A DNA stretch of 10,593 bases, from NCBI GenBank assembly GCA_017555445.1, contig JAFZGK010000100.1, forward strand, positions 1 to 10,593, in the 5' to 3' direction. Numbering within the stretch: position 1 is the first letter of the stretch; every line of letters starts with the position of its first letter. Below are positions 1 to 10,593 of this stretch, piece by piece. Source of the stretch: Bacteroidales bacterium (GTDB lineage Bacteria > Bacteroidota > Bacteroidia > Bacteroidales > UBA932). The notes under the pieces were generated by a model. That model was not told where the DNA came from, made no database searches, and was given only the letters and a program-made list of their open reading frames with translations. The position numbers and the translations under genes were made by a program.

Positions 1-27
1 AAGGTCAGCCAATAGGCTGACTTTCTT
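1..27 (+). terminator. Hairpin with T-rich tail at the left edge
   Basis: GTCAGCC (4-10) pairs perfectly with GGCTGAC (15-21) around an AATA loop. Outer G-T and A-T pairs extend the stem to bases 1 and 24, and TTTCTT follows. This has the form of an intrinsic terminator for a gene left of the window. Only about 22 bases separate it from the ATG at 50, too few for a full Bacteroidota promoter, so it could instead be a hairpin in the leader of the next gene. Confidence 0.6.
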
Positions 28-49
28 GACTAAACCTATTAATATTAAG

Positions 50-337
50 ATGAAGATTATAAGCGATACATTCAACTGTGGTGTCAGGACCGTAGTTGCC
101 CAACCTGAAGGAGTATGCTCGCAGGCAATCGAACTCAAGCTCTTCGGCGACGTAATCGCTGAAGTGAACTTCTACGGCGGATGCAGCGGCAACCTTAAGG
201 GAATTGCCTCACTCTGTAAAGGACAGAAGATTTCCGATGTGCAGCAGAGGCTTCAGGGAATTACCTGCGGCCCGAAGAATACCTCCTGTCCTGATCAGTT
301 TGCACAACTTTTGAGAGCCATACAGAAGATTGATTAA
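50..337 (+). CDS. TSCPD-domain (TIGR03905-type) small protein
   Basis: A 95-residue protein that fits the TIGR03905/TSCPD family almost end to end. These are small stand-alone proteins resembling a C-terminal segment of adenosylcobalamin-dependent ribonucleotide reductases; their biochemical role is not established. Visible family features are GVCS around Cys23, FYGGCSGN at 41-48, a Cys at 73, and the diagnostic TSCPD at 78-82. The conserved cysteines suggest metal binding, which is inference. I chose the ATG at 50 over an in-frame TTG at 26. The TTG adds only eight residues, lies in the tail of the preceding hairpin, and the ATG places the protein at the usual family length. There is no Shine-Dalgarno sequence, which is normal for this phylum. 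A terminator follows directly, so the gene appears to end its transcript. Family assignment is firm; function is not. Confidence 0.9.
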   Translation: MKIISDTFNCGVRTVVAQPEGVCSQAIELKLFGDVIAEVNFYGGCSGNLKGIASLCKGQKISDVQQRLQGITCGPKNTSCPDQFAQLLRAIQKID

Positions 338-354
338 AGTTATTGATATAATGA

Positions 355-400
355 CTCAGCCAAATAGAACTGATTTTGTTTCTTTTGGCTGGGTTTTGTT
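355..400 (+). terminator. Intrinsic terminator after the TSCPD gene
   Basis: CTCAGCCAAA (355-364) pairs with TTTGGCTGGG (384-393), including one T-G wobble, around a loop of about 19 bases. TTTTGTT follows. It begins 18 bases after the stop codon. Confidence 0.8.
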
Positions 401-445
401 ATGGAAAGAGCATAATCCTGACTTGTGTTTCTGTAATCTTTCTTA

Positions 446-473
446 TTGCTGAATGTTTTTTTGCGTAAGTTTG
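446..473 (+). promoter_or_regulatory. Bacteroidota-type promoter of the rubrerythrin gene
   Basis: TAAGTTTG (466-473) is an exact match to the TAnnTTTG -7 element. A TTG at 446-448 lies 17 bases upstream as a minimal -33 element. The expected start point near 480 gives a leader of about 43 bases before the ATG at 523. Confidence 0.65.
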
Positions 474-522
474 TCTTGATTTAAAATTGAATCCCTTTTT
501 AAGTAACAAAGCATAGACGATT

Positions 523-1065
523 ATGAAAGAATTGAAAGGAACAAAGACGGAGGCTAATCTTCAGACCGCTTTTGCCGGTGAGTCTCAGGCTCGCAACAAG
601 TACACTTACTATGCCTCCAAGGCAAAGAAGGATGGATATGTACAGATCGCAAAGCTCTTCGAGGAGACAGCTAACAACGAGAAGGAGCATGCGAAGATAT
701 GGTTCAAGCTTCTCCACGGTGGCGAGATGCCTGACACAGCAGCTAACCTCCTTGATGCTGCAGAAGGTGAGAACTACGAGTGGACAGATATGTATGCCGG
801 TTTCGCAGAAGAGGCTCGCGAGGAAGGGTTCACTGAGATTGCAGTGCTTTTCGAGAAGGTTGCTGCCATCGAGAAGATGCATGAGGAGCGTTACCGCAAG
901 CTTCTGGCTAATGTCCAGGGAGGACTGGTCTTCTCACGTGACGAGGATATGATGTGGGAGTGCTCTAACTGCGGTCATGTCGTGGTCGGCAAGAAGGCTC
1001 CGGAACTCTGCCCTGTGTGCAAGCATCCGAAGAGCTATTTCATGATTCACCCTACCAACTATTAG
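523..1065 (+). CDS. rbr: Rubrerythrin
   Basis: Rubrerythrin is a cytoplasmic non-haem iron protein that reduces hydrogen peroxide to water in anaerobes, usually with electrons from rubredoxin or an NADH-dependent reductase. The 180-residue protein is slightly short but complete. Residues 1-130 are the ferritin-like four-helix diiron domain: Glu20, the EKEH motif (Glu53, His56), glutamates in the 96-101 segment, and the EKMH motif (Glu117, His120). Residues 145-173 form the C-terminal rubredoxin-like domain, with CSNC (Cys147, Cys150) and CPVC (Cys163, Cys166) to bind the Fe(SCys)4 centre. All expected ligands are present, so it should be functional. It has its own promoter and terminator and looks monocistronic. 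The ATG at 523 starts the protein where the family normally begins ([10 protein letters not shown]). Confidence 0.97.
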
Positions 1066-1087
1066 TAAGCAAACCCTCTTATGCGAT

Positions 1088-1137
1088 ATAATCCGGCCGG
1101 AAAGATCGATGTGCCTTTCAGACCGGATTATTTGTTT
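1088..1137 (+). terminator. Intrinsic terminator after rubrerythrin
   Basis: A nine-pair outer stem, ATAATCCGG (1088-1096) with CCGGATTAT (1123-1131), encloses a second small stem, GAAAG (1100-1104) with CTTTC (1115-1119). TTTGTTT runs on from the stem end. Confidence 0.85.
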
Positions 1138-1304
1138 CCTGGCGGACTTCAGACGCTTTCGTTATTCCAAATATTCCCTCTAAGTAGTATCTGAAAATAT
1201 GCAATATGAGACTTTGTCAAACTCTTGAAAGATTTTTCTTAAAAATGGCCTCGTAACTCATTGATACTCAATATGGGCTGAAAGACTTTTGTAAGACGAT
1301 TAAT
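1138..1304. other. Non-coding spacer with no recognised feature
   Basis: The gap between rubrerythrin and the next gene (1066-1394) is 329 bases. It holds the rubrerythrin terminator and, at its right end, a promoter. In this remaining stretch I see no gene, RNA, repeat or convincing operator. It is AT-rich and has stops in all plus-strand frames. Confidence 0.5.
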
Positions 1305-1335
1305 TTTGATGTCAAACTATGAATGCTTAACTTTG
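1305..1335 (+). promoter_or_regulatory. Bacteroidota-type promoter of the membrane-anchored coiled-coil gene
   Basis: TTTG (1305-1308) is followed by 19 bases and TAACTTTG (1328-1335), matching both elements of the TTTG-N(17-23)-TAnnTTTG consensus. Transcription would start near 1342, about 50 bases before the ATG at 1395. Confidence 0.75.
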
Positions 1336-1394
1336 TGTCCGGTGGATGCTACAATGGAGCATACTGATTGTTGCAAGTGCTAATTAGTTTGACT

Positions 1395-1997
1395 ATGAGT
1401 TTTCTTGAAAGCACCACTGCTGTTTGTGTGGTGCTGATCATTATTGCGGTTCTTCTGCTTGTGCTTGTCCTGATGGCTGCAGCTGCCTGTCGCGGAAGTA
1501 GTTCAGGAGTAAGTAGCATTTTGACAGAGATGAAGGCCATGAATGAGTCCTTGGTGTCATACGGGGAAAGTCTCGAAACCCTCTGTCGGCATATGTGCAA
1601 TACGGACCGAAACATCGCGACGCTGAAGAATTATCTGAAGGAGGATAAGGCAATGTCCTGTTATGCCGTATACATGGCTCAGATAATAGACCTCAGGCGT
1701 TCCTGGGAGACCTTGTCCGTATATGCCGGCTTGCTTTCCAAGGTCCGCCATCTGTCCGAACTGGACAAGGATGACACTATGATCCGTATGATGAGCACTC
1801 ATCTTGCGGAGACGGAGGATTTATGCTCCCGTATCAATGGAGATCGGGATATGTATCCGCTTCAGAGACGGCGTCTGGTCAACTATATGAAGGTGGCTAT
1901 GGAAGGATATGTGTTTCCGTTGCTGGAGAGTATTCATTATCACGGGAGTGAGGAGCTATCTAAAACTATCGAACGAATAAGAGAGGAGATATTTTAG
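1395..1997 (+). CDS. Membrane-anchored helical protein, unknown function
   Basis: I do not recognise this 200-residue protein. Residues 8-31 form one strongly hydrophobic transmembrane helix rich in Val, Leu, Ile and Ala, ending in a small-residue and cysteine stretch (AAAACRG). The remaining 168 residues are polar and predicted helical: coiled-coil-like around 38-85, then further charged helices to the C-terminus (SKTIERIREEIF). No catalytic motif, lipobox or signal-peptidase site is obvious, so the helix probably stays as a membrane anchor. Which side the soluble part faces cannot be decided. I chose the ATG at 1395. The reading frame is open from a TTG at 1368, but that start adds only nine residues and is a rarer codon. 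The gene has its own promoter, no clear terminator, and lies 100 bases before the TPR regulator. A shared pathway is possible but unproven. Confidence 0.75.
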   Translation: MSFLESTTAVCVVLIIIAVLLLVLVLMAAAACRGSSSGVSSILTEMKAMNESLVSYGESLETLCRHMCNTDRNIATLKNYLKEDKAMSCYAVYMAQIIDLRRSWETLSVYAGLLSKVRHLSELDKDDTMIRMMSTHLAETEDLCSRINGDRDMYPLQRRRLVNYMKVAMEGYVFPLLESIHYHGSEELSKTIERIREEIF

Positions 1998-2059
1998 TCT
2001 ATATGGCGTTAATCGCTTGTCATTTTCCCTCTGTATTATGTAGTTACATATTTATGATT

Positions 2060-2067
2060 TATATTTG
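2060..2067 (+). promoter_or_regulatory. Probable -7 element of the TPR regulator gene
   Basis: TATATTTG matches TAnnTTTG exactly and would start transcription near 2074, about 24 bases before the ATG. No good TTTG lies 17-23 bases upstream, so the promoter may be weak or activator-dependent. Read-through from the preceding gene is also possible, as I see no terminator after 1997. Confidence 0.5.
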
Positions 2068-2097
2068 TGTTGAATTGTATCCGATCATCAGTAAACT

Positions 2098-3807
2098 ATG
2101 AATAAAAGACACATACTATATATATTGCTATTGGGATTTGTTCTTGCTTCATGTTCTGACACTGCCGAGGTGGAAAGGTATCTTGATGCAGCAGATGTAC
2201 ATATGGAGGATAATCCGGAAATGGCTCTTGAGACTCTCGAAGACATCGATAGGGAAATGCTGACCAACCGTAAGGTCCGTGCCCGATTCGCATTGCTCTA
2301 CACGATGGCGTTGGACAAGAATTATATTGATGTGGCAAGCGACAGCATCATCGCTCCAGCTGTCAAATATTATGAGAACCACGGGACTGCTGAAGACAAA
2401 TTCAAGACCTTATATTATACTGGTCGAATTTATCAGAATGCCGGTAATGTCGAGGCTGCGATGAAGAAATTTGTTGAAGCCGAATACCATATTTCTAATC
2501 AGATAGACAAGGGTATTATAGCTCGTATGTATAAAGCTAAGATGGTTGCTTATCAAAGTATATTCGATTATAAATCGGCTGTTCTACAGGCCCATAATGC
2601 GGCTAGGTATTATTTGGCCGCAAATGATTCTATCAGATATCTGAATGCAGTTAATGATATAGCCGTACTTTATAGTCAGTTAAATGATATGGAATCTCAG
2701 GATAAATATATTAAGATTCTTGAATCGAATACTTCTATTATGGATGAGTATCAGCTGAGTAATTATTATGCTATTCGTTTAAATACTGCCTTTGGTATAT
2801 CGGATCATACAATTAATGATACTCTATCAGAATATCTATCAGTTATTTCAGATAAATCGTTAATTAATTGGTTGTCTGTATCAAAAGCCTATATTGTTTT
2901 GCAAGATTTTAAATCTGCAAGAATCGCTCTTGATAGTTATATATCTTATGGTGGGTTACCGGATCCTTCTTACTATTGGATAGCAGCAACTTTATATGAA
3001 CATCTTGGTGAATATTGCGAAGCTCTAAAGTATTATAAAGAATATCAGAATTCAACTGATGAAACAGATGTCTATATATTTGAAAGTGATACTAAATTCA
3101 TAGAGGAACGATATGATGCAGAACTAAAATCAGTAAGGCAAAGCCTTTATATAATAATCATTACATTATCTTTAACTATTGTAGTTCTTGTGTTGATTAT
3201 TCTTGCACAAAGAATGAAGAAAGTGAAAGAAGAAAAACGCATTCAAAAAATCAAGTTCGATGAAGAACGCAGGGCTATAGTCGGAGAAAAAGAGGAAGTT
3301 GAAGCACGATATGTTCTTATTAAAGAAGAGAAGGAAGAGGCGGAACGAATGTATTCTTCACTTAAAGCCGAGATAGAGCAACTCAAGAAGATTAGAAAAG
3401 ATAAATCAATAGATAAGGATATTCTTGCTTCTGTCGAACAGAGGTTGAATGTTCTTAATATGTTCATTCTGGCAGAGCTCTCAGATTCCTTTGAAAAAAT
3501 CGCGTATACTGAACTCGGAAAATTGATGGAGAACAGAGAGAGTTTTCTGGAATCCACAAAGAAGACCTTTATGATCTCTCATCCGAAGTTTATGGCATAC
3601 CTTCGTGAGAGAAATCTTACAGAATGGGAGATCGGCTGCTGCTGCTTGTATTGTATTGGTTTCAACGGAGCCGAGATTTCAGAGTATCTTAATCGCAAGG
3701 CAATCTATAATGTTAACAGTACTATTAGACAGAAATTGGATATTCCAAAGGGTGGAACGCAGATAGATGTATTTCTTAAGCAAAAAATGCAAGAATTGCA
3801 TACATAG
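2098..3807 (+). CDS. Transmembrane TPR regulator with C-terminal LuxR-like HTH
   Basis: This 569-residue protein has the layout of the Bacteroidota one-component regulators usually annotated as tetratricopeptide repeat proteins. Residues 1-19 are a signal peptide with a lipobox (LASC, Cys19). Residues about 21-340 are helical TPR-like repeats with the family signature around KNYID (74-78), recurring Tyr/Ala/Leu pairs and EALKYYKEY (308-316). One transmembrane helix spans about 349-371. A highly charged coiled coil covers about 372-435. The C-terminus (about 500-550) resembles a LuxR/GerE helix-turn-helix: LTEWEIG at 507-513, GAEISEYLN at 524-532 as first and turn elements, and NSTIRQKLDI at 540-549 as the recognition end. 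I infer that the TPR part senses a periplasmic or envelope ligand and that the cytoplasmic HTH controls nearby genes. The 5' and 3' ends are about 45-50% GC while the middle (about 2500-3250) falls to about 28-33%. The start is followed at once by a good signal peptide. Confidence 0.88.
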   Translation: MNKRHILYILLLGFVLASCSDTAEVERYLDAADVHMEDNPEMALETLEDIDREMLTNRKVRARFALLYTMALDKNYIDVASDSIIAPAVKYYENHGTAEDKFKTLYYTGRIYQNAGNVEAAMKKFVEAEYHISNQIDKGIIARMYKAKMVAYQSIFDYKSAVLQAHNAARYYLAANDSIRYLNAVNDIAVLYSQLNDMESQDKYIKILESNTSIMDEYQLSNYYAIRLNTAFGISDHTINDTLSEYLSVISDKSLINWLSVSKAYIVLQDFKSARIALDSYISYGGLPDPSYYWIAATLYEHLGEYCEALKYYKEYQNSTDETDVYIFESDTKFIEERYDAELKSVRQSLYIIIITLSLTIVVLVLIILAQRMKKVKEEKRIQKIKFDEERRAIVGEKEEVEARYVLIKEEKEEAERMYSSLKAEIEQLKKIRKDKSIDKDILASVEQRLNVLNMFILAELSDSFEKIAYTELGKLMENRESFLESTKKTFMISHPKFMAYLRERNLTEWEIGCCCLYCIGFNGAEISEYLNRKAIYNVNSTIRQKLDIPKGGTQIDVFLKQKMQELHT

Positions 3808-3842
3808 TAGTCTCACTTTGAGATAGTATAGTCTCACCTTTG
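3808..3842. repeat. Pair of 21-bp-spaced TAGTCTCAC boxes after the regulator's stop codon
   Basis: TAGTCTCACTTTG (3808-3820) recurs as TAGTCTCACCTTTG (3829-3842), with starts exactly 21 bp apart, about two helical turns. The first copy begins immediately after the regulator's stop codon. On the minus strand the core reads GTGAGACTA, which is also the core of the boxes at the next promoter. The first copy additionally contains the small palindrome TCTCA-CTT-TGAGA (3811-3823). It is probably a protein-binding site pair, as inferred from spacing and repetition. Confidence 0.7.
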
Positions 3843-3843
3843 T

Positions 3844-3881
3844 AACTCCCCGATAATCAAGTGGTTATCGGGGAGTTTTTC
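3844..3881 (+). terminator. Very strong intrinsic terminator after the regulator
   Basis: A perfect 13-pair stem, AACTCCCCGATAA (3844-3856) with TTATCGGGGAGTT (3865-3877), closes an eight-base loop and runs into TTTTC. It isolates the regulator's transcript from the secreted-protein block. The A-rich start of the stem gives little sign of bidirectional use. Confidence 0.95.
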
Positions 3882-3910
3882 TATATGTATCTAAACGCTT
3901 AGAAAATAAC

Positions 3911-3918
3911 GGGGGGGG
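3911..3918. repeat. Run of eight G
   Basis: An uninterrupted G8 tract lies in the spacer between the terminator and the promoter of the DUF3244 gene, about 40 bases left of the first GTGAGA box. Homopolymer G tracts of this length are prone to slippage. Confidence 0.9.
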
Positions 3919-3956
3919 TAAGTTGCTATAAATCAATATTTTACCAATTTTTAAAA

Positions 3957-3986
3957 GTGAGACTAAAAATTTGCAGGTGAGAATGA
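3957..3986 (+). promoter_or_regulatory. Candidate operator: two GTGAGA boxes 21 bp apart
   Basis: GTGAGACTA (3957-3965) and GTGAGAATG (3978-3986) have starts exactly 21 bp apart and lie on either side of the -33 TTTG at 3970-3973. The first box, extended to AAAGTGAGACTA (3954-3965), is a perfect 12-base inverted copy of 3808-3819 just downstream of the regulator gene. The position relative to the promoter suits an activator that contacts RNA polymerase, or a repressor that blocks it. The adjacent TPR/HTH regulator is the obvious candidate protein (inference). Confidence 0.65.
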
Positions 3987-4002
3987 GGCCGCGATACTTT
4001 TG
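3970..4002 (+). promoter_or_regulatory. Promoter of the DUF3244 gene
   Basis: TTTG (3970-3973), 21 bases, then TACTTTTG (3995-4002) matches the Bacteroidota -33/-7 consensus. Transcription should start near 4009. It leaves an A-rich leader of about 20 bases before the ATG at 4030, a common arrangement for highly translated genes in this phylum. Confidence 0.8.
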
Positions 4003-4029
4003 TAGCACAAACCAAAAACAATTTGAAAA

Positions 4030-4407
4030 ATGAAAAAAGTATTGTCCATTATTATTGCGGCCTTCTGCATAAGCCTCACTTATAGTTATGCAGATAATGC
4101 TAAGAGCACGCAGGAGCCGAAGAAGCCTATCATGATTTTTAAAGGCAAACCTACTGTTGGAATTGAGAGATCTGCCCAGTATGTTAATGCTGTACTAAAT
4201 CTAGAGACTAAAACCATTGAGATGGAGTTTTATGGATTGGGGGATGGAGAGATTTATATAGTTGATTCAGATAATAAGGTAGTAGATTCTGTTATGCTTA
4301 CCTGGGAGATGACTTCAGTTATTATGAATTCACCTATTAATGAGGGGTACTATTATTTGGTTGTCTCATGCTCGGAATTTTATGGTGAAGGGGTGTTTGA
4401 AATATAA
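4030..4407 (+). CDS. DUF3244-type small secreted protein
   Basis: A 125-residue protein with a clear Sec signal peptide (MKKVLSIIIAAFCISLTYSYA, cleavage probably after Ala21) and a mature part of about 100 residues. The mature part is a predicted beta-sandwich: repeated short hydrophobic strands, LETKTIEMEFYG (58-69), EIYIVDSDNKVV (74-85), and the closing YYYLVVSCSEFYGEGVFEI (107-125). This order, with IYIVDSDNKVV matching the typical 'v.I.d..G.vVy' strand and a final G-F-I strand, is what DUF3244 proteins of Bacteroidota show. The function of that family is unknown; it is periplasmic or exported. It is the first gene behind the boxed promoter and is likely the main target of that control. 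The assignment rests on pattern memory rather than a profile search. Confidence 0.75.
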   Translation: MKKVLSIIIAAFCISLTYSYADNAKSTQEPKKPIMIFKGKPTVGIERSAQYVNAVLNLETKTIEMEFYGLGDGEIYIVDSDNKVVDSVMLTWEMTSVIMNSPINEGYYYLVVSCSEFYGEGVFEI

Positions 4408-4451
4408 ATCATAAAGAAATGGATACTGCTGATGAACCACCTTATATTTTT

Positions 4452-4464
4452 GCCCCATTGGGGC
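4452..4464. other. Short GC hairpin between the DUF3244 gene and the lipoprotein gene
   Basis: GCCCC (4452-4456), loop ATT, GGGGC (4460-4464). T residues precede rather than follow it on the + strand, so it is not a normal terminator. It lies in the 99-base gap and could act as an mRNA stability or processing element that lowers expression of the downstream genes. I see no consensus promoter in the gap. Confidence 0.4.
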
Positions 4465-4506
4465 TAATCCATTGTTCATTAAGTTCAACTTTAAATTAAT
4501 AATAAT

Positions 4507-5406
4507 ATGAAAAAGCTAATTGTTTACTCAATATTTATTGTATTAAGTATTGTGTCTTGTTCAAAGAATAATCACGTAAATGATATAGATGATACACCAG
4601 TTACACCTGTTACATCAGTAGTAAATCAAGAGTATATTAATTTGATTAATGAATTAGAGGTGTATAACTCCAACTTTAATGTTGAGACAAGATTTAGTAG
4701 TCTCAGAGGTGGTTTTTGGAGAAGATTGGGAAGAGTTGCACTAGCTGATTGTATGGGATTCTTAGGTGGTTCATTCTTGGGCCCAGGTGCTGGTCTAGGT
4801 TTTGGCGTGTTCAGCTCAGCTATGGCAGCAATGGCTGAAATCATAACTGTTATTGAAACCCGATCGGTTACTACAGAAGTTTCCTTGTCGAATGATTTGT
4901 TGTATACCAATGTAGCTCTAGATGATTTGGAAGCATGTGACTTAGTTGGTGAAATACATAATCAAATTCTAGATGAAATTTACACAGAATATCCTGAATG
5001 CTTCGAGACTTTTACTGAAGAGCAGTGGATTAATGTTATAACAGAAAAGATAATTGAATTATTTCCGGATGAGCCAGCAGTAGATATCAATTCATATCGT
5101 AGTGAATCGGCAGAAACAATAAGTATCATAATGGATCCGGATAATGACTTAGATGCCGCATTTGATGCGTTAAAAGTAAGGATGCCATTAAGATGTGATG
5201 AACTCGAAGTTGTTCGAACTTATTGTGAGACGGTTAATTCCATTGAAGAAAATCAAGGCGTAATTGATTATACAGATGGCTTTAGAGAAATTGTGGTCGG
5301 GTCAGACATTAATGATGATTCAAAACAATATATACAGTCCGCTATCTCTGTAGCAGGAAACAGTCAACTTCTTTGGTCTGAATGCGTTAAAGAGCCTGTA
5401 CTATGA
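4507..5406 (+). CDS. Lipoprotein with glycine-rich, bacteriocin-like hydrophobic segment
   Basis: I do not recognise a named family for this 299-residue protein. It opens with a lipoprotein signal peptide and lipobox (SIVSC, Cys18), then a Thr/Pro/Val linker (29-39). Residues 66-69 read LRGG, followed by a basic aromatic stretch (FWRRLGRVALADC, 70-82). A Gly/Ala-rich hydrophobic block spans about 83-112 and contains MGFLGGSFLGPGAGLGFG. The rest (113-299) is acidic and predicted helical. Besides the lipidated Cys there are cysteines at 82, 144, 165, 230, 240 and 293. The Gly-rich block resembles membrane-active segments of class II bacteriocins, or a glycine-zipper insertion helix. Toxin, adhesin or structural roles are all possible. 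It is probably co-transcribed with the DUF3244 gene and shares an ATGA stop-start overlap with the next gene. The coding sequence is AT-rich except in the glycine codons. Confidence 0.8.
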   Translation: MKKLIVYSIFIVLSIVSCSKNNHVNDIDDTPVTPVTSVVNQEYINLINELEVYNSNFNVETRFSSLRGGFWRRLGRVALADCMGFLGGSFLGPGAGLGFGVFSSAMAAMAEIITVIETRSVTTEVSLSNDLLYTNVALDDLEACDLVGEIHNQILDEIYTEYPECFETFTEEQWINVITEKIIELFPDEPAVDINSYRSESAETISIIMDPDNDLDAAFDALKVRMPLRCDELEVVRTYCETVNSIEENQGVIDYTDGFREIVVGSDINDDSKQYIQSAISVAGNSQLLWSECVKEPVL

Positions 5407-5966
5407 ATGGATTAAAGAAAGTGTATGTTGCAATAGCCCTTGTTGGGGCTATTGCAAGTCAATCGCTATATGCACAGGATAAGCAATCTAAAGTTGATAG
5501 TCTGCTATTTGCTTCGATTGAAATGTATCATTCTGGAGATATCTTTTCTGAGTCATACTGGGATAAAGGCATACCGAGTCGCTCAAATATTGGTTATTCA
5601 ATTAAATTGGGATATGACTTTACTCCGAGGTTGAAGACTTATATTAATGCAAAGATGGAGTATGATCACTATAATCGGCTTACAACGCAAAACTTCTATA
5701 CTCAAGTGGAATTGGGAGTCGGTGCAGCATATACTTTTATTTCAAAGGATGGACATCTTTATTACGAACCAGACTTCTCAATTTCGTCAGATGTAAGTAG
5801 TAAGTCCCCGATGGGTCTCAACACCAAACTTGCATGCAAAGCTGGAGTAAACACCAATCGCTATAAGCCCTTCATTTCTCTGTTTTTTGAGTTTATGAGT
5901 CCATATGAGAAAACATTAAAACCATGTGCATATATGGGACTGTCAATTGGTATTGATTTGTTATAG
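5403..5966 (+). CDS. Small outer-membrane beta-barrel protein, unknown function
   Basis: A 187-residue protein with a Sec signal peptide (cleavage after SLYA, near residue 24). A series of alternating hydrophobic/polar strands follows, typical of small outer-membrane barrels: YSIKLGYDFTPRLKTYINAKMEY (about 65-87), FYTQVELGVGAAYTF, HLYYEPDFSIS, KPFISLFFEF and a final GLSIGIDLL strand. The count suits an eight-stranded barrel. No enzymatic motif is visible. Its ATG overlaps the lipoprotein's TGA by four bases (ATGA, 5403-5406), so translation is probably coupled and the products made in fixed ratio. I infer they act together, for example as a lipoprotein-barrel surface pair or as toxin and self-protection partner. 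I see no clear terminator after it. Confidence 0.75.
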   Translation: MNGLKKVYVAIALVGAIASQSLYAQDKQSKVDSLLFASIEMYHSGDIFSESYWDKGIPSRSNIGYSIKLGYDFTPRLKTYINAKMEYDHYNRLTTQNFYTQVELGVGAAYTFISKDGHLYYEPDFSISSDVSSKSPMGLNTKLACKAGVNTNRYKPFISLFFEFMSPYEKTLKPCAYMGLSIGIDLL

Positions 5967-6060
5967 GGAATAAGAAGCACTATCATCCGATTGCCCTCAC
6001 AGAAAAGGACTTACCTTACTGTTTTGCCGTAGTTGCATACTAGAAATTAATATACCTAAA

Positions 6061-8283
6061 ATGTTTTTTCATCACTACAAACAGTTAGACGCCATGGACT
6101 GCGGTCCTACGTGCCTGCGCATGATCGCGCGGCATTACGGCAGGAGCTACAGCCTCCAGAACCTTCGCGAGCGGTGCCACATCACCCGCGAGGGGGTGTC
6201 CATGCTGGGGATAAGCGATGCGGCGGAGGGCATCGGCTTCCGTGCGACGGGCGTGAAGATCACCTGGGACCAGCTCCGCGACGAGATGCCTCTGCCGTGC
6301 ATCGTCCACTGGAACCAGAGGCACTTCGTGGTGGTTTATGAGGTAAGGAAGAGACGTGGCGGTTATATTGTCAAGGTTGCCGATCCGGCATCTGGACTCC
6401 TGACCTATACTGAGGAGGCATTCTGCAGGGCCTGGCTCCAGACAGGGAAAGACAATGAAGGTGACGATTCCGTATCAGCAAACACCCACGGCATAGCTCT
6501 GATGCTGGAGCCGACTCCGAAGTTCTACGAGGAGAAGGGTGACGAGGAGAGGAAGTTCGGATTCGAATACATCCTCGGATATCTGCGTCCTTACAAGTCG
6601 TTTATCGTCCAGATACTCCTGGCGATGCTCGTGACCAGCGTCATTAGCCTGATACTGCCGTTCATCACTCAGTCCGTGGTTGATACCGGTATCGGCACAG
6701 GCAACCTATCCTTCGTGGTGATGCTGCTGATAGCACAGCTGGTGCTGACGATAGGTCAGATGGCCAACAACCTTATCCGCAGCTGGCTGATGCTCCACAC
6801 CACCTCCAGGGTGAGCATATCGCTCATCTCGGACTTCCTGTGCAAGCTGATGAAGCTTCCGATAGCGTTCTTCGACTCGAAGATGGTCGGCGACATAATG
6901 CAACGCATCGGTGACTACAACAGGATCCAGACCTTTCTTACCGGTTCTCTTCTGAGCATCATCATCGCTGCCGTGACGTTCCTCATCTACGGAGGCATAA
7001 TGGCGGGATACAACATAGGAGTGTTCCTGGTGTTCTTCGCGGGAGCCGCTCTCTACATCGGATGGGTGCTCCTGTTCCTCAGGAGAAGACGCAAGCTCGA
7101 CTACATGAGGTTCCAGGAGGCGTCTGCCAACCAGAGCAACATCGTGCAGCTGATCGGAGGAATGCAGGACATCAAGCTGAACAACTGCGAGAAGCAGAAG
7201 CGCTGGGACTGGGAGCGGATACAGGCACGCCTGTTCAAAGTAAGCGTCAAGAGTCTCTCGCTCGGCCAGGCTCAGGAAGTGGGAGGAACTTTCATCGACC
7301 AGACGAAGAACATCCTTATATCGTTCCTCGCAGCCAAGTCTGTCATCAGCGGTGACATGACCCTCGGTATGATGATGTCCCTGCAGTACATTATGGGACA
7401 GCTGAACGCCCCCATCTCACAGTTCATCTCGTTCGTCCAGGCCACGCAGGATGCTTCCATCTCCCTTGAGAGGCTCGGAGAGATCCACGACATGAAGGAC
7501 GAGGAGCCGGAGGACGAGCAGAAGATCAGGGACATCCCTCAGGACGCGGACATCGTGTTCGACAACGTTACCTTCCAGTACGACGGCCCTCACTCGACCA
7601 AGGTGCTTGACGGAGTGTCTCTGCGCATACCTGCCAACAAGGTGACTGCGATCGTCGGAGCCTCCGGCAGCGGCAAGACCACGATGCTGAAGATGATGCT
7701 TGGCTTCTACAGGCCGGTCAGCGGAGAGGTGCGCCTCGGTGGAGCATCTATCTCTGCCTACAGAGAGAGGGTTTGGAGGTCGCAGTGCGGAAGCGTGATG
7801 CAGGAGGGCTACATCTTCTCCGACAGCATATTGGGCAACATAGGAGTGTCGGATGAGACTCCTGATATGGCAAGAGTGCGCAAGGCAGCAGATGTGTCGA
7901 ACATCCGGGAATGGATCGAGAGGCTTCCGTTGGGATACAACACCAAGATCGGAGCCGACGGTCACGGTCTCAGCACAGGACAAAAGCAGAGGATCCTCAT
8001 AGCGAGAGCTGCGTATAAGGACGCGAAGTTCCTGTTCTTTGACGAGGCGACCAACTCGCTTGATGCGAACAACGAGAAGGCCATAATGGAGAACCTCGAC
8101 AGACTGTTCGAGAACAAGACGGTCGTTATCGTGGCGCACAGGCTCAGCACCGTACGCAACGCAGACAACATCATCGTGCTGGACAACGGAAGGATCGCGG
8201 AGGAAGGAACGCACGAACAACTTACGGCAAGAAGAGGAAAGTACTATGAACTGGTCAAGAATCAGCTCGAACTTGGAAACTGA
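6061..8283 (+). CDS. C39-peptidase-containing ABC exporter (bacteriocin/peptide type)
   Basis: A 740-residue inner-membrane transporter that removes a leader peptide and exports the product with ATP. Residues 1-150 are a C39 peptidase: catalytic Cys14 in DCGPTC, His88 in NQRHFVVV and Asp108 in ADPASG, all intact. Residues about 175-460 are the six-helix transmembrane domain, including helices around 180-200, 218-235, 296-312 and 320-340. Residues 497-740 are the nucleotide-binding domain: Walker A GASGSGKTT (533-541), Q-loop Gln581, signature LSTGQ (637-641), Walker B FLFFDE (657-662) and H-loop His693. This is the peptidase-containing ABC (PCAT) layout used for double-glycine leader substrates. 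MFFHHYKQLDAMDCG is a normal C39 beginning, so the ATG at 6061 is sound. The gene heads an operon with the HlyD and TolC-type genes. The first 270 bases are markedly GC-rich (63-67% in lines counted) against about 52% just after. Confidence 0.96.
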   Translation: MFFHHYKQLDAMDCGPTCLRMIARHYGRSYSLQNLRERCHITREGVSMLGISDAAEGIGFRATGVKITWDQLRDEMPLPCIVHWNQRHFVVVYEVRKRRGGYIVKVADPASGLLTYTEEAFCRAWLQTGKDNEGDDSVSANTHGIALMLEPTPKFYEEKGDEERKFGFEYILGYLRPYKSFIVQILLAMLVTSVISLILPFITQSVVDTGIGTGNLSFVVMLLIAQLVLTIGQMANNLIRSWLMLHTTSRVSISLISDFLCKLMKLPIAFFDSKMVGDIMQRIGDYNRIQTFLTGSLLSIIIAAVTFLIYGGIMAGYNIGVFLVFFAGAALYIGWVLLFLRRRRKLDYMRFQEASANQSNIVQLIGGMQDIKLNNCEKQKRWDWERIQARLFKVSVKSLSLGQAQEVGGTFIDQTKNILISFLAAKSVISGDMTLGMMMSLQYIMGQLNAPISQFISFVQATQDASISLERLGEIHDMKDEEPEDEQKIRDIPQDADIVFDNVTFQYDGPHSTKVLDGVSLRIPANKVTAIVGASGSGKTTMLKMMLGFYRPVSGEVRLGGASISAYRERVWRSQCGSVMQEGYIFSDSILGNIGVSDETPDMARVRKAADVSNIREWIERLPLGYNTKIGADGHGLSTGQKQRILIARAAYKDAKFLFFDEATNSLDANNEKAIMENLDRLFENKTVVIVAHRLSTVRNADNIIVLDNGRIAEEGTHEQLTARRGKYYELVKNQLELGN

Positions 8284-8284
8284 C

Positions 8285-8290
8285 AGGAGG
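8285..8290 (+). promoter_or_regulatory. Strong Shine-Dalgarno sequence before the HlyD-type gene
   Basis: AGGAGG lies seven bases before the ATG at 8298, inside the 14-base gap after the ABC gene's stop. It is the only full Shine-Dalgarno I see before a gene here. Most genes in this phylum lack one. Confidence 0.75.
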
Positions 8291-8297
8291 AAGCACC

Positions 8298-9605
8298 ATG
8301 CCACATAAAAGAGACATAAACTATCATAGCGAACCCGTGCAGGAGATAATGGGTACAATCCCGTCGTGGATCACACGCTGGGGCGTGACCGTGATCTTTG
8401 CGGTCTTCACGCTGATCGTCATCGGATGCTGCATCATCAGGTATCCGCAGACAGTGGATGCGGGCATCTCGATCACTTCCTCCTGTCCACCATCAGAGCT
8501 TACGGCCAGATATGACGGCCTCATCGACAGGGTGTGCGTCATCGACGGTCAGAAGGTGCAGGCAGGCGAACTTATAGCCCTGCTCTCTACGCCGGCAAGT
8601 TACGAGGACATCATCTCGATGAGTGAATATCTCTCAATGTCGGACACACTGGGATTGGATAGGATGGCACAGATGCCTGTTCTTTCAGCAGACCTTCAGC
8701 TCGGAGGACTGCAGAGCCAATGGAGCACATTGCAGAAGGCGTTCCGTGACTACTCGCATTATCTTGAGACTGATCAGGTGTCCGTAAAAAAAGGACTGCT
8801 CCGACAGCAGATACAAGGTCAGAAGTCTCATCACTCTACACTGATGAGGCAGAAGACTCTGCTTGACAGTGAGGTGGAGATGGAATGCAAGACTCTTGAA
8901 CGAGACTCTCTGCTATATGCAAGAAAGGCTATCTCGCAGGCGGAGTACGAGACCTCCCGCAAGGGTTTCCTGGCCAAGTTGAATACGGTGGCGGGGTTTG
9001 AGGCGAGCCTTGAGGCTACAGCCCTTGGTATACTCCAGCTGGAGCAGCAGCTGGTGGAACTCGACCTGCAGAGAGTGACCGAGACAGAAATACACGAGTC
9101 GCAGATAAGCCAGCAGATATACCAGCTGAAGGCTCAGGTTGCCACCTGGCTGGATACATACGCGATCATCGCGCCATCAAACGGCATAGTGTCCCTGCAG
9201 GACTACTGGAGCCCGGGACAGCACGTCAACGTCGGGGACGTGATAGCCAACATCACCCCAGAGAATCCGTCCGAAGTTACCGGAAGAATGAAGGTGTCAT
9301 CCGTCGGCTTCGGCAAGGTGGCCCTCGGCCAGACAGTCAATGTGCGTCTGAACGGGTTCCCGTATATGGAGTACGGCATCCTGAAGGCTGTGGTGGCGAA
9401 CGTCGCATCCGTGCCGGAAAGGATGCAGGACGGCAGCGTGGCATACACTGTTGCAGTGGACTTTCCTGACGGACTGGAAAGCACATACCACAAGGAGTTC
9501 CCGCTGATCCAGCAGATGGACGGCGAGGCCCAGATCATCACCAGGGACAGAAGGCTCATCGAACAATTCATAGATCCTATAGTGTCACTCTTCAGGAACA
9601 GATAG
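8298..9605 (+). CDS. HlyD-family periplasmic adaptor (membrane fusion protein)
   Basis: The adaptor that joins the inner-membrane ABC exporter to the outer-membrane channel. The 435-residue protein has a short cytoplasmic N-terminus and one transmembrane helix at about 28-47. The first half of a lipoyl-like domain follows at 68-97 (YDGLIDRVCVIDGQKVQAGE). Residues about 135-285 form a long alpha-helical coiled-coil hairpin. The second lipoyl half comes at 289-320 (IIAPSNGIVSLQDY, PGQHVNVGDVIA), then a beta-barrel and membrane-proximal region to the C-terminus. Length and domain order are usual for HlyD-type proteins paired with peptidase-containing exporters. It lies 14 bases behind the ABC gene and 2 bases before the TolC-type gene, a tight operon. 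Confidence 0.95.
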   Translation: MPHKRDINYHSEPVQEIMGTIPSWITRWGVTVIFAVFTLIVIGCCIIRYPQTVDAGISITSSCPPSELTARYDGLIDRVCVIDGQKVQAGELIALLSTPASYEDIISMSEYLSMSDTLGLDRMAQMPVLSADLQLGGLQSQWSTLQKAFRDYSHYLETDQVSVKKGLLRQQIQGQKSHHSTLMRQKTLLDSEVEMECKTLERDSLLYARKAISQAEYETSRKGFLAKLNTVAGFEASLEATALGILQLEQQLVELDLQRVTETEIHESQISQQIYQLKAQVATWLDTYAIIAPSNGIVSLQDYWSPGQHVNVGDVIANITPENPSEVTGRMKVSSVGFGKVALGQTVNVRLNGFPYMEYGILKAVVANVASVPERMQDGSVAYTVAVDFPDGLESTYHKEFPLIQQMDGEAQIITRDRRLIEQFIDPIVSLFRNR

Positions 9606-9607
9606 TT

Positions 9608-10593
9608 ATGCGTACGATGACGGTCATACTGGCAATGCTTGCCGCAGGAACGCTCTGCGCTCAGATCCCTTCCAAGGTCTGGACCCTTGAGGAGTGCATA
9701 GACTACGCCCTTGAGCATAACATAGAGATCAAGAGGCAGGAACTGGGCGTAGATAACTCGGAGATAGGACTCTCGGAGAGCCGGTGGGACTATGCTCCCT
9801 CGCTGTCAGCCGGATCATCATACAGCATATCCTCCGGAAGGGTACTCGACCAGACCACATACGAGTTCATCGAGAACAACGTGGTGGGAAGCAGCAGCGC
9901 ATCCGTGTCCGGAAGCGTGCAGGTCTTCTCGGGAATGAGACGGCACTATGCACTCAAGAAGGCCAAGGCATCGTTGAAGGCTTCGCTGGCGGATCTTGAG
10001 AGCGTCAGACAGGATATAGAACTGAACGTCACGGCAGCCTACCTTCAGATACTGTGTGATCAGGAGAACCTATCCTCTGCAAAGGAGATGGCCTCGATGC
10101 TTGAAGCACAGATTGAGAAGATACAGACGATGGTGGAACTGGGCCGTGTGACCGAGGCTGACCTGCTTCAGATAAGGTCTCAGCACTATGCGGCGCTTAA
10201 TGATGTCGCGGCAGCAGAAGGCCAATGCAGACTGTCGAGGATGGAACTATGCCAGTTGCTGGAGATACAGGACTGGGATAGCTTCAAGATAGAGACGATC
10301 GACCCCGATGAGTATGAGAGTATGCAGCTGTTCCCAATAACGGACTCACTCGCAGTAGAATCAAGACCAGAATACCGATCTGCAGAGGCAAGTGTGGAAG
10401 TAGCAAGGAGAAACATCCAGATCGCAAGATCGTCGTACTATCCGACGCTATCTCTGTCTGCAGGCTACGGCACGAGCTACTCAGGCGCAAGGCAGAAGGC
10501 CGTACAGAACCCCGACGGTACATATCGTTACGAGGCGTACCCTTTCTTCCGGCAGTACCTTGACAACGGAAGCTCGTACCTCTCGCTGAGCCT
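9608..10593 (+). CDS. TolC-family outer-membrane efflux protein, 3' end outside the window
   Basis: The outer-membrane and periplasmic tunnel of the exporter. About 328 residues are visible and the reading frame stays open to the last base, so the C-terminal part is missing; the family usually runs to about 430-490 residues. A signal peptide occupies residues 1-19 (cleavage near LCAQ). The first outer-membrane-efflux repeat follows: WTLEECIDYALEHNIEIK (25-42), a beta segment around APSLSAGSSYSIS, long helices around 112-215, and the family motif GRVTEADLLQIRSQ (179-192). The second repeat starts with SRPEYRSAEASVEVARRNI (252-270) and YYPTLSLSAGYG (277-288). The ATG at 9608 comes two bases after the HlyD-type stop, so coupled translation is likely. 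No defects are seen in the visible part. Confidence 0.95.
   Translation, partial: MRTMTVILAMLAAGTLCAQIPSKVWTLEECIDYALEHNIEIKRQELGVDNSEIGLSESRWDYAPSLSAGSSYSISSGRVLDQTTYEFIENNVVGSSSASVSGSVQVFSGMRRHYALKKAKASLKASLADLESVRQDIELNVTAAYLQILCDQENLSSAKEMASMLEAQIEKIQTMVELGRVTEADLLQIRSQHYAALNDVAAAEGQCRLSRMELCQLLEIQDWDSFKIETIDPDEYESMQLFPITDSLAVESRPEYRSAEASVEVARRNIQIARSSYYPTLSLSAGYGTSYSGARQKAVQNPDGTYRYEAYPFFRQYLDNGSSYLSLS

Follow-up and report, generated by a model that had tools for sequence, protein, structure and literature searches.

Regulators with a helix-turn-helix (HTH) domain of the NarL/FixJ/LuxR type, among them NarL, VpsT, LiaR, VraR, and RcsB, carry this domain with a receiver domain, and in ToxR and CadC one protein with a single transmembrane (TM) helix provides the path from the periplasm to promoter DNA. 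Here, a 10,593-nucleotide stretch of a Bacteroidales bacterium (contig JAFZGK010000100.1, positions 1 to 10,593; "the window") was analyzed, in which the gene for a tetratricopeptide repeat (TPR) protein with a C-terminal HTH is followed by two pairs of short boxes in opposite orientation. The left pair begins at the end of the regulator gene, and the right pair lies at the promoter of the next gene. From sequence comparisons with related loci, we consider it quite probable that the right pair is the operator of the adjacent regulator, which would sit astride the -33 element and most likely recruit RNA polymerase there; the left pair would add a further operator, most likely acting by way of a bent loop.

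The DNA-binding domain of the regulator is predicted to share the fold of the NarL/FixJ/LuxR-type proteins. The domain model (predicted local distance difference test score, 92) is a four-helix HTH with helices only and no strand, and ranks 1 to 38 among the 50 structural matches listed are NarL/LuxR-type HTH proteins. A Pfam GerE match was not found in the regulator, for which hmmscan to an E value of 0.01 gave weak TPR families only. The initial annotation had likened the spaced direct repeats to those bound by LytTR-type activators, whose DNA-binding domain is beta-rich; as an assignment of the regulator to that class, the comparison is contradicted by the all-helical model and the structural ranking, and no LytTR Pfam match was obtained up to an E value of 0.01. 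In contrast to the NarL/FixJ/LuxR-type proteins, the HTH is carried by a TM TPR protein rather than joined to a receiver domain, and its sites, 8-mers in tandem, are spaced by about 20 bp around the -33 element. Hydropathy peaks at residues 345 to 376, in a region modeled as a helix from residue 306 to 390. The protein is thus predicted to be a membrane-bound one-component regulator in which one TM helix separates the sensor from the DNA-binding domain, the TPR domain being probably periplasmic. ToxR and CadC have the opposite topology and another DNA-binding fold, whereas the HTH here is C-terminal and LuxR type. The TPR solenoid fold is common to the RRNPP peptide sensors (Rap and NprR) and MalT domain III, which are cytoplasmic; LGN and others match equally well, and the likeness in fold does not show peptide sensing by the regulator.

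Among described families, one near the regulator is that of BT3442 (NF053779), whose members adjoin DUF3244 genes in Bacteroides and to which the regulator has weak full-length similarity, far below the cutoff (72.2 bits versus the curated 940 bits), and with which it shares a similar gene order. BT_3442 is a multidomain TPR protein whose neighbor, BT_3441, is an immunoglobulin-like protein, and the passages of PMC2954219 on these genes name no DNA binding for BT_3442. The distant BT3442-type loci have repeated words of a different kind, which are 44 or 45 bp apart in L175, L180, and L176, where by eye they surround a TGATTATCA or TTGATAATCAA core, and 21 bp apart in L181. Literature searches aimed at the regulator family returned no description of DNA binding or of an operator.

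Tandem boxes at the promoter following the regulator gene

The geometry of the boxes was largely as the initial annotation had described it. The sequence TAGTCTCAC at 3808 and 3829 places minus-strand GTGAGA at 3811-3816 and 3832-3837, 21 bp apart, and the outer 12 bp (3808-3819 and 3954-3965) are exact reverse complements. The left pair was said to begin at the stop codon of the regulator gene; it starts directly after the TAG at 3805-3807, on a second in-frame TAG. For the right pair, the first plus-strand GTGAGA was found where it had been placed (3957-3962), while the second lies at 3977-3982 rather than at 3978, and the spacing is 20 bp rather than 21 bp. The right boxes bracket TTTG at 3970-3973, as claimed, and this element together with TACTTTTG at 3995-4002 forms a consensus Bacteroidota promoter, with TTTG near -33 and TAnnTTTG near -7, as in the sigma-ABfr consensus (PMC7366714). 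The terminator of the regulator gene (3844-3877) sits between the two pairs.

GTGAGA occurs nine times in the window on both strands. Some hexamer formed two opposite-strand pairs at 19 to 21 bp in 177 of 20,000 dinucleotide shuffles of a 222-nt segment, a result that by itself is suggestive only. A scan of the window for the pattern with a 15-nt gap and up to two mismatches gave 2 matches against 1.19 expected, which is not above chance; these were the left pair (exact) and a one-mismatch match at 3605 inside the regulator gene, and the right pair was not among them. Since a chance arrangement was not negligible by either measure, the related loci were decisive, and it is their conservation that led us to judge the box arrangement real.

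Related loci were taken from a genome-collection scan (the best 80 of 230 relatives), which gave 79 loci; without L035, which runs off its contig, and with the window added, there were 79 sources. Promoter-like elements were picked without regard to repeats in 47 of the 79 sources, or 41 after removal of near-duplicates; figures from a promoter choice that used repeat scores were kept out of the statistics. Direct 8-mer repeats matching at 7 or more of 8 positions were present in these 41 promoters at a spacing of 20 bp in 18 (13 perfect), at 19 bp in 9, and at 21 bp in 3, compared to about 0.75 to 1.1 in shuffles and 0 to 3 at other spacings from 8 to 32 bp. The peak is therefore at 19 to 20 bp; the 21-bp count alone is not above background because other spacings reach 0 to 3. 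Control promoters in the same loci had such repeats in 19 of 186 cases, about nine of which were by eye of the same promoter kind. The conservation that had been proposed as a check on the boxes was thus observed, with the spacing peak recurring in promoters that follow related regulators.

The boxes are also specific to their loci. A search of related genomes for spaced GTGAGA pairs, as had been suggested, returned three occurrences of GTGAGA-N13-15-GTGAGA per genome in the two 2.3- to 2.4-Mb genomes holding L001 and L002 (G001 and G002), two of the three in each being the left and right pairs of the regulator locus; the reversed pattern occurred once and twice. The third pair lies inside a coding frame in G001 and, in G002 (L081), outside open frames of at least 100 aa, with no clear -7 element by eye. 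The box pair of the paralogs L018 and L021 was found once per genome, at its own locus. The regulator family itself is multiplied: each of six genomes had between 3 and 21 matched stretches. At an E value of 1e-120, with at most four candidates scored per listed genome, close orthologues were found among 299 genomes of the family of G001 in G001 only; in the family of G004, 98 genomes yielded G004 only, and viral contigs gave none. Among 295 genomes of the order, at least 5 had an NF053779 match at an E value of 1e-40, again with at most four candidates scored per listed genome.

Covariation of the box sequence with the HTH domain

The box differs from regulator to regulator. It is GTGAGACT in the window, L001, and L002, while related regulators are followed by GTCAAACT, GTTAAACT, GTAAAACT, ATGAAACT, ATGAAAGT, CTGAAACT, GGAAGACT, or TTAGAAAC, and even paralogs of one genome differ (L002 versus L021; L001 versus L018). 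In Mantel tests over 33 loci, box distance correlated with HTH distance at 0.47 and with TPR distance at 0.29 (P = 0.001 for each); with TPR distance held constant, the HTH correlation was 0.38 (P = 0.001), and with HTH distance held constant, that of the TPR part fell to 0.01 (P = 0.43). Three of the 33 regulators (L018, L021, and L061) are short frames without the TPR part, and the test was repeated on the other 30. The full-length regulators gave 0.50 for the HTH and 0.42 for the TPR part (P = 0.001 each), with partial correlations of 0.32 (P = 0.001) and 0.09 (P = 0.12), respectively. At the level of sequence, the box tracks the HTH more than it tracks the TPR part.

Residues and bases were then compared in 45 of 48 sets; the window (HTH and box the same as in L002), L019, and L025 (box pattern fit below 6 of 8) were dropped, and L021 was counted twice, as two HTH genes precede one promoter. 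HTHs of the NF053779 type were too different for this test. Of the HTH columns, residue 538, the third of the predicted recognition helix, showed the strongest link to box base 3 (z = 16.7, versus 7.8 for the second-best column). His at this position went with C in 9 of 10 sets, Ile with A in 3 of 3, Asn with G or T in 28 of 28, Lys with A in 3 of 3, and Arg with C in 1 of 1. The column remained on top at HTH identity limits of 95, 80, 70, and 60% (n = 36, 20, 17, and 11; z = 12.8, 6.3, 4.9, and 3.1); in the 60% set, the sole remaining His row is the exception, L015.

A rule was written from the first 33 loci before more were fetched: His at residue 538 goes with C at base 3, KRHYN with T, and RSHVN or RSHYN with G. 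It was tested on sets with a promoter outside the first 33, minus L058, whose HTH is identical to that of L060, and was right in 9 of the 10 sets that it covered. The successes were L120, L121, L099, and L164 (His to C), L125 (Asn to T), and L043, L062, L130, and the second L018 promoter (all to G); the failure was L015, which has His with base A and a doubtful promoter. L090 (PGHVN) also has ATG and falls outside the wording of the rule. Only L120, L121, L125, L130, and L164 were fetched after the rule was written, the others being already on hand outside the 33, and several of the loci are close kin of earlier ones, so the test is a modest one. Box words that change with one regulator residue suggest a readable protein-to-DNA code. 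In L018 and L021, the TPR regulator and the controlled gene are separated by a small stand-alone HTH gene, which has its own promoter with similar boxes.

Conservation, locus specificity, and covariation together support the initial annotation in assigning the right pair, as operator, to the TPR/HTH regulator encoded next to it. An uncharacterized, multiplied regulator family of gut Bacteroidales would thereby gain a predicted operator, a promoter architecture, and a residue-level recognition rule, and the targets of other family members would become predictable from sequence. The family is tied to small secreted proteins and, in the window, to a C39 exporter.

The left pair, the upstream site, and candidate mechanisms

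When each locus was compared with random windows of its own, an inverted left pair matching the right pair was detected in the window, L001, L002, and L005 (P = 0.002, the lowest value that the test could give), and a same-strand left match was detected in L029, L032, L044, and L060. Left matches in L018 and L021 were set aside, since the window of the test there ran into the promoter itself, and a left match was absent in the other 23 of the 33 loci (P of 0.055 or more). Among 71 nonredundant loci, the left windows contained repeats matching at 7 or more of 8 positions in five cases at 20 bp and in four at 21 bp, with 0 to 3 at other spacings. By these comparisons the left pair is real but limited to some lineages. 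The distance between the left and right pairs is 127, 127, and 128 bp in the window, L001, and L002.

Between the pairs, the IHF consensus WATCAANNNNTTR, an enterobacterial consensus (PMC8942017), is matched exactly at 3855 and 3931. In regulator-linked promoters, this sequence sits 59 to 67 bp upstream of the -7 element; an exact match at this fixed place was present in 8 of 41 such promoters versus 1 of 186 controls, and with up to one mismatch in 16 of 41 versus 5 of 186, 4 of those 5 controls also carrying repeats. HU/IHF-family matches numbered one in G001 and three in G002. The two matches of the window are 76 bp apart, a distance also found in L001, where both are exact, and in L002, where each has one mismatch. 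Among regulator-linked promoters, runs of at least six G or C upstream of the IHF-like site were found in 6 of the 27 with repeats and in 0 of 14 without, compared to 1 of 19 and 0 of 164 controls, respectively. L008 and L009, whose regulators are 99.2% identical in DNA, have 6 versus 11 C; this difference suggests slippage and possibly a slipped-strand switch, with an assembly error as the alternative.

In the mechanism that we propose, the TPR domain would be periplasmic and the cytoplasmic NarL/LuxR-type HTH would read each box of 3957-3984; as the covariation suggests, base 3 would be recognized by residue 538 in the recognition helix. Two protomers would bind head to tail about two helical turns apart, straddling the -33 element, and the HTH pair on one DNA face would contact polymerase from the opposite face. 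The analogy here is phage lambda CII, an activator that likewise binds direct repeats, there straddling -35, but which is an unrelated soluble protein with a shorter spacing. The most likely outcome would be recruitment of sigma-ABfr RNA polymerase by the regulator to the promoter ahead of the small secreted protein gene; the same promoter may drive the lipoprotein, the outer-membrane protein, and the C39/HlyD/TolC exporter. Bending of the DNA by a protein of the IHF/HU type is probable at the conserved site, whose start lies 26 bp upstream of box 1. In the lineage of the window, the inverted left pair would act as a second operator for this regulator and most likely keep it close to the promoter via the bent loop.

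The looping step, by which the left pair would serve as an auxiliary operator, is plausible. The helical phasing of left versus right pairs gave it no support, with no 10.5-bp peak over ten loci (R = 0.31); in the six two-box loci, R was 0.79, equally high at neighboring periods. Feedback and a minus-strand promoter had been offered as other uses of the left pair. No GTGAGA or TCTCAC was found at the promoter of the regulator itself (1700-2110), no TTTG was seen by eye between the left boxes of the window, L001, and L002, and inspection by eye, not a scan, showed no good TAnnTTTG at a matching distance on the minus strand of the window.

We lean toward activation rather than repression. The regulator could instead be a repressor that occludes the -33 and -7 elements until it is released by a periplasmic signal, with the left pair supporting a repression loop. 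Box 2 does lie in the -33/-7 spacer, the promoter elements are close to consensus, and an arrangement of two operators separated by bend-like sites is reminiscent of known repression loops. However, an IHF-like site at a fixed upstream place fits activation at least as well, and in many loci the promoter pair stands alone. We regard repression as the main rival, possible but unlikely. Slightly less likely still is that the left pair has no present function, being a relic or the operator of a weak minus-strand promoter. Its restriction to some lineages and its degenerate state in L004 and L007 are in keeping with a relic, but the paired boxes stand within 3 nt of the stop codon in the window, L001, L002, L005, L008, and L009, the left boxes have 0 to 4 mismatches of 16 to the right box 1 of their own locus though boxes differ between loci, and -33/-7 elements were not seen by eye on the minus strand.

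That the boxes act in RNA, the left and right boxes pairing in a read-through transcript and so controlling termination or translation, we hold to be very improbable. The 236-nt segment folds strongly with left and right boxes paired (z = -5.6), but much of this fold energy may come from the terminator; since the terminator stands between the pairs and transcripts start downstream of the boxes, a normal transcript should not hold both. RNA pairing also leaves unexplained why loci that lack a left pair still have tandem repeats at 20 bp around -33, and why the boxes covary with an HTH residue. Chance, low-complexity repeats, or mobile-element ends are next to negligible as an explanation, despite the shuffle result and the first pattern count, given the conservation, spacing peak, and covariation (no search aimed at mobile-element ends was made).

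Downstream genes and the variable cassette

Coordinates of the boxes, promoter, regulator, and downstream genes are collected in Table 1.

Table 1. Features of the regulator locus, in window coordinates
Feature	Coordinates	Strand	Remarks
Regulator	2098..3807	plus	Lipobox-like N terminus, TPR solenoid, one predicted TM helix, coiled coil, NarL/LuxR-type HTH
Regulator recognition helix (predicted)	from about residue 536		Putative specificity residue N538
Left outer box	3809..3816	minus	GTGAGACT on minus strand; directly after stop codon; matched in L001, L002, L005
Left inner box	3830..3837	minus	GTGAGACT on minus strand; 21 bp from outer box
Intrinsic terminator of regulator gene	3844..3877	plus	15-bp stem plus T tail
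IHF-consensus match	3855..3867	plus	AATCAAGTGGTTA; inside terminator stem-loop
Run of 8 G	3911..3918	plus	G or C runs recur here in relatives
IHF-consensus match	3931..3943	plus	AATCAATATTTTA; starts 26 bp upstream of right box 1
Right box 1	3957..3964	plus	GTGAGACT; upstream of -33 element
-33 element TTTG	3970..3973	plus	Consensus from PMC7366714
Right box 2	3977..3984	plus	GTGAGAAT; in -33/-7 spacer, 20 bp from box 1
-7 element	3995..4002	plus	TACTTTTG; promoter element match
Small protein, 125 aa	4030..4407	plus	Signal-peptide-like N terminus; first gene after promoter; family resembles DUF3244 below Pfam cutoffs
Predicted lipoprotein	4507..5406	plus	Lipobox by eye; probably cotranscribed
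Probable outer-membrane protein	5403..5966	plus	Weak DUF481 match; probably cotranscribed
C39-peptidase ABC exporter	6061..8283	plus	
HlyD-type adaptor	8298..9605	plus	
TolC-type outer-membrane efflux protein	9608..10593	plus	Runs off window

The operon may extend beyond the small-protein gene at 4030. The product of this gene appears DUF3244-like only: it has no match to DUF3244 (PF11589; Pfam cutoff, 25 bits), the products of eight relatives score 13.0 to 20.1 bits in five cases, below the cutoff, and have no match in three, and a profile search reached the DUF3244 structure 3sd2 at an E value of 0.14 only. BT_3441 we take to be a DUF3244 protein.

The C39 exporter is 97% (L001) and 96% (L004) identical to that of the window, versus 43% and 38% for the small protein. 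Exporter genes overall are 91 to 97% identical to those of the window (the C39 exporter only in L001; three genes in L004), and the regulator and small protein only 38 to 60%. The cassette ahead of the conserved exporter is therefore the variable part. The regulator of the homologue P0016 is 97% identical to that of the window at the N terminus, 15% in the mid-TPR region, and up to 100% in the C-terminal part. These identities in L001, L004, and P0016 would be in keeping with the swapping of a sensing and cargo module next to an exporter that stays constant. On this basis we raise, as a speculative and rather improbable idea, that these are self-recognizing export circuits forming a large, polymorphic family, in which the variable periplasmic TPR domain would sense the secreted product of its own operon, the HTH would read a private tandem operator, and a slippery G/C run, lying between the two operators and next to the IHF-like site, would switch the promoter by DNA length. 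If this were true, many paralogs could operate side by side without cross talk via a simple residue-to-base code.

Mosaic regulator alleles were seen in P0016, P0018, P0019, and P0023, in which the ends are conserved relative to the window and identity in the TPR middle drops to as low as 15 to 30%. In the window, a 200-aa protein, without a Pfam match up to an E value of 0.01, is encoded at 1395-1997, between rubrerythrin and the regulator.
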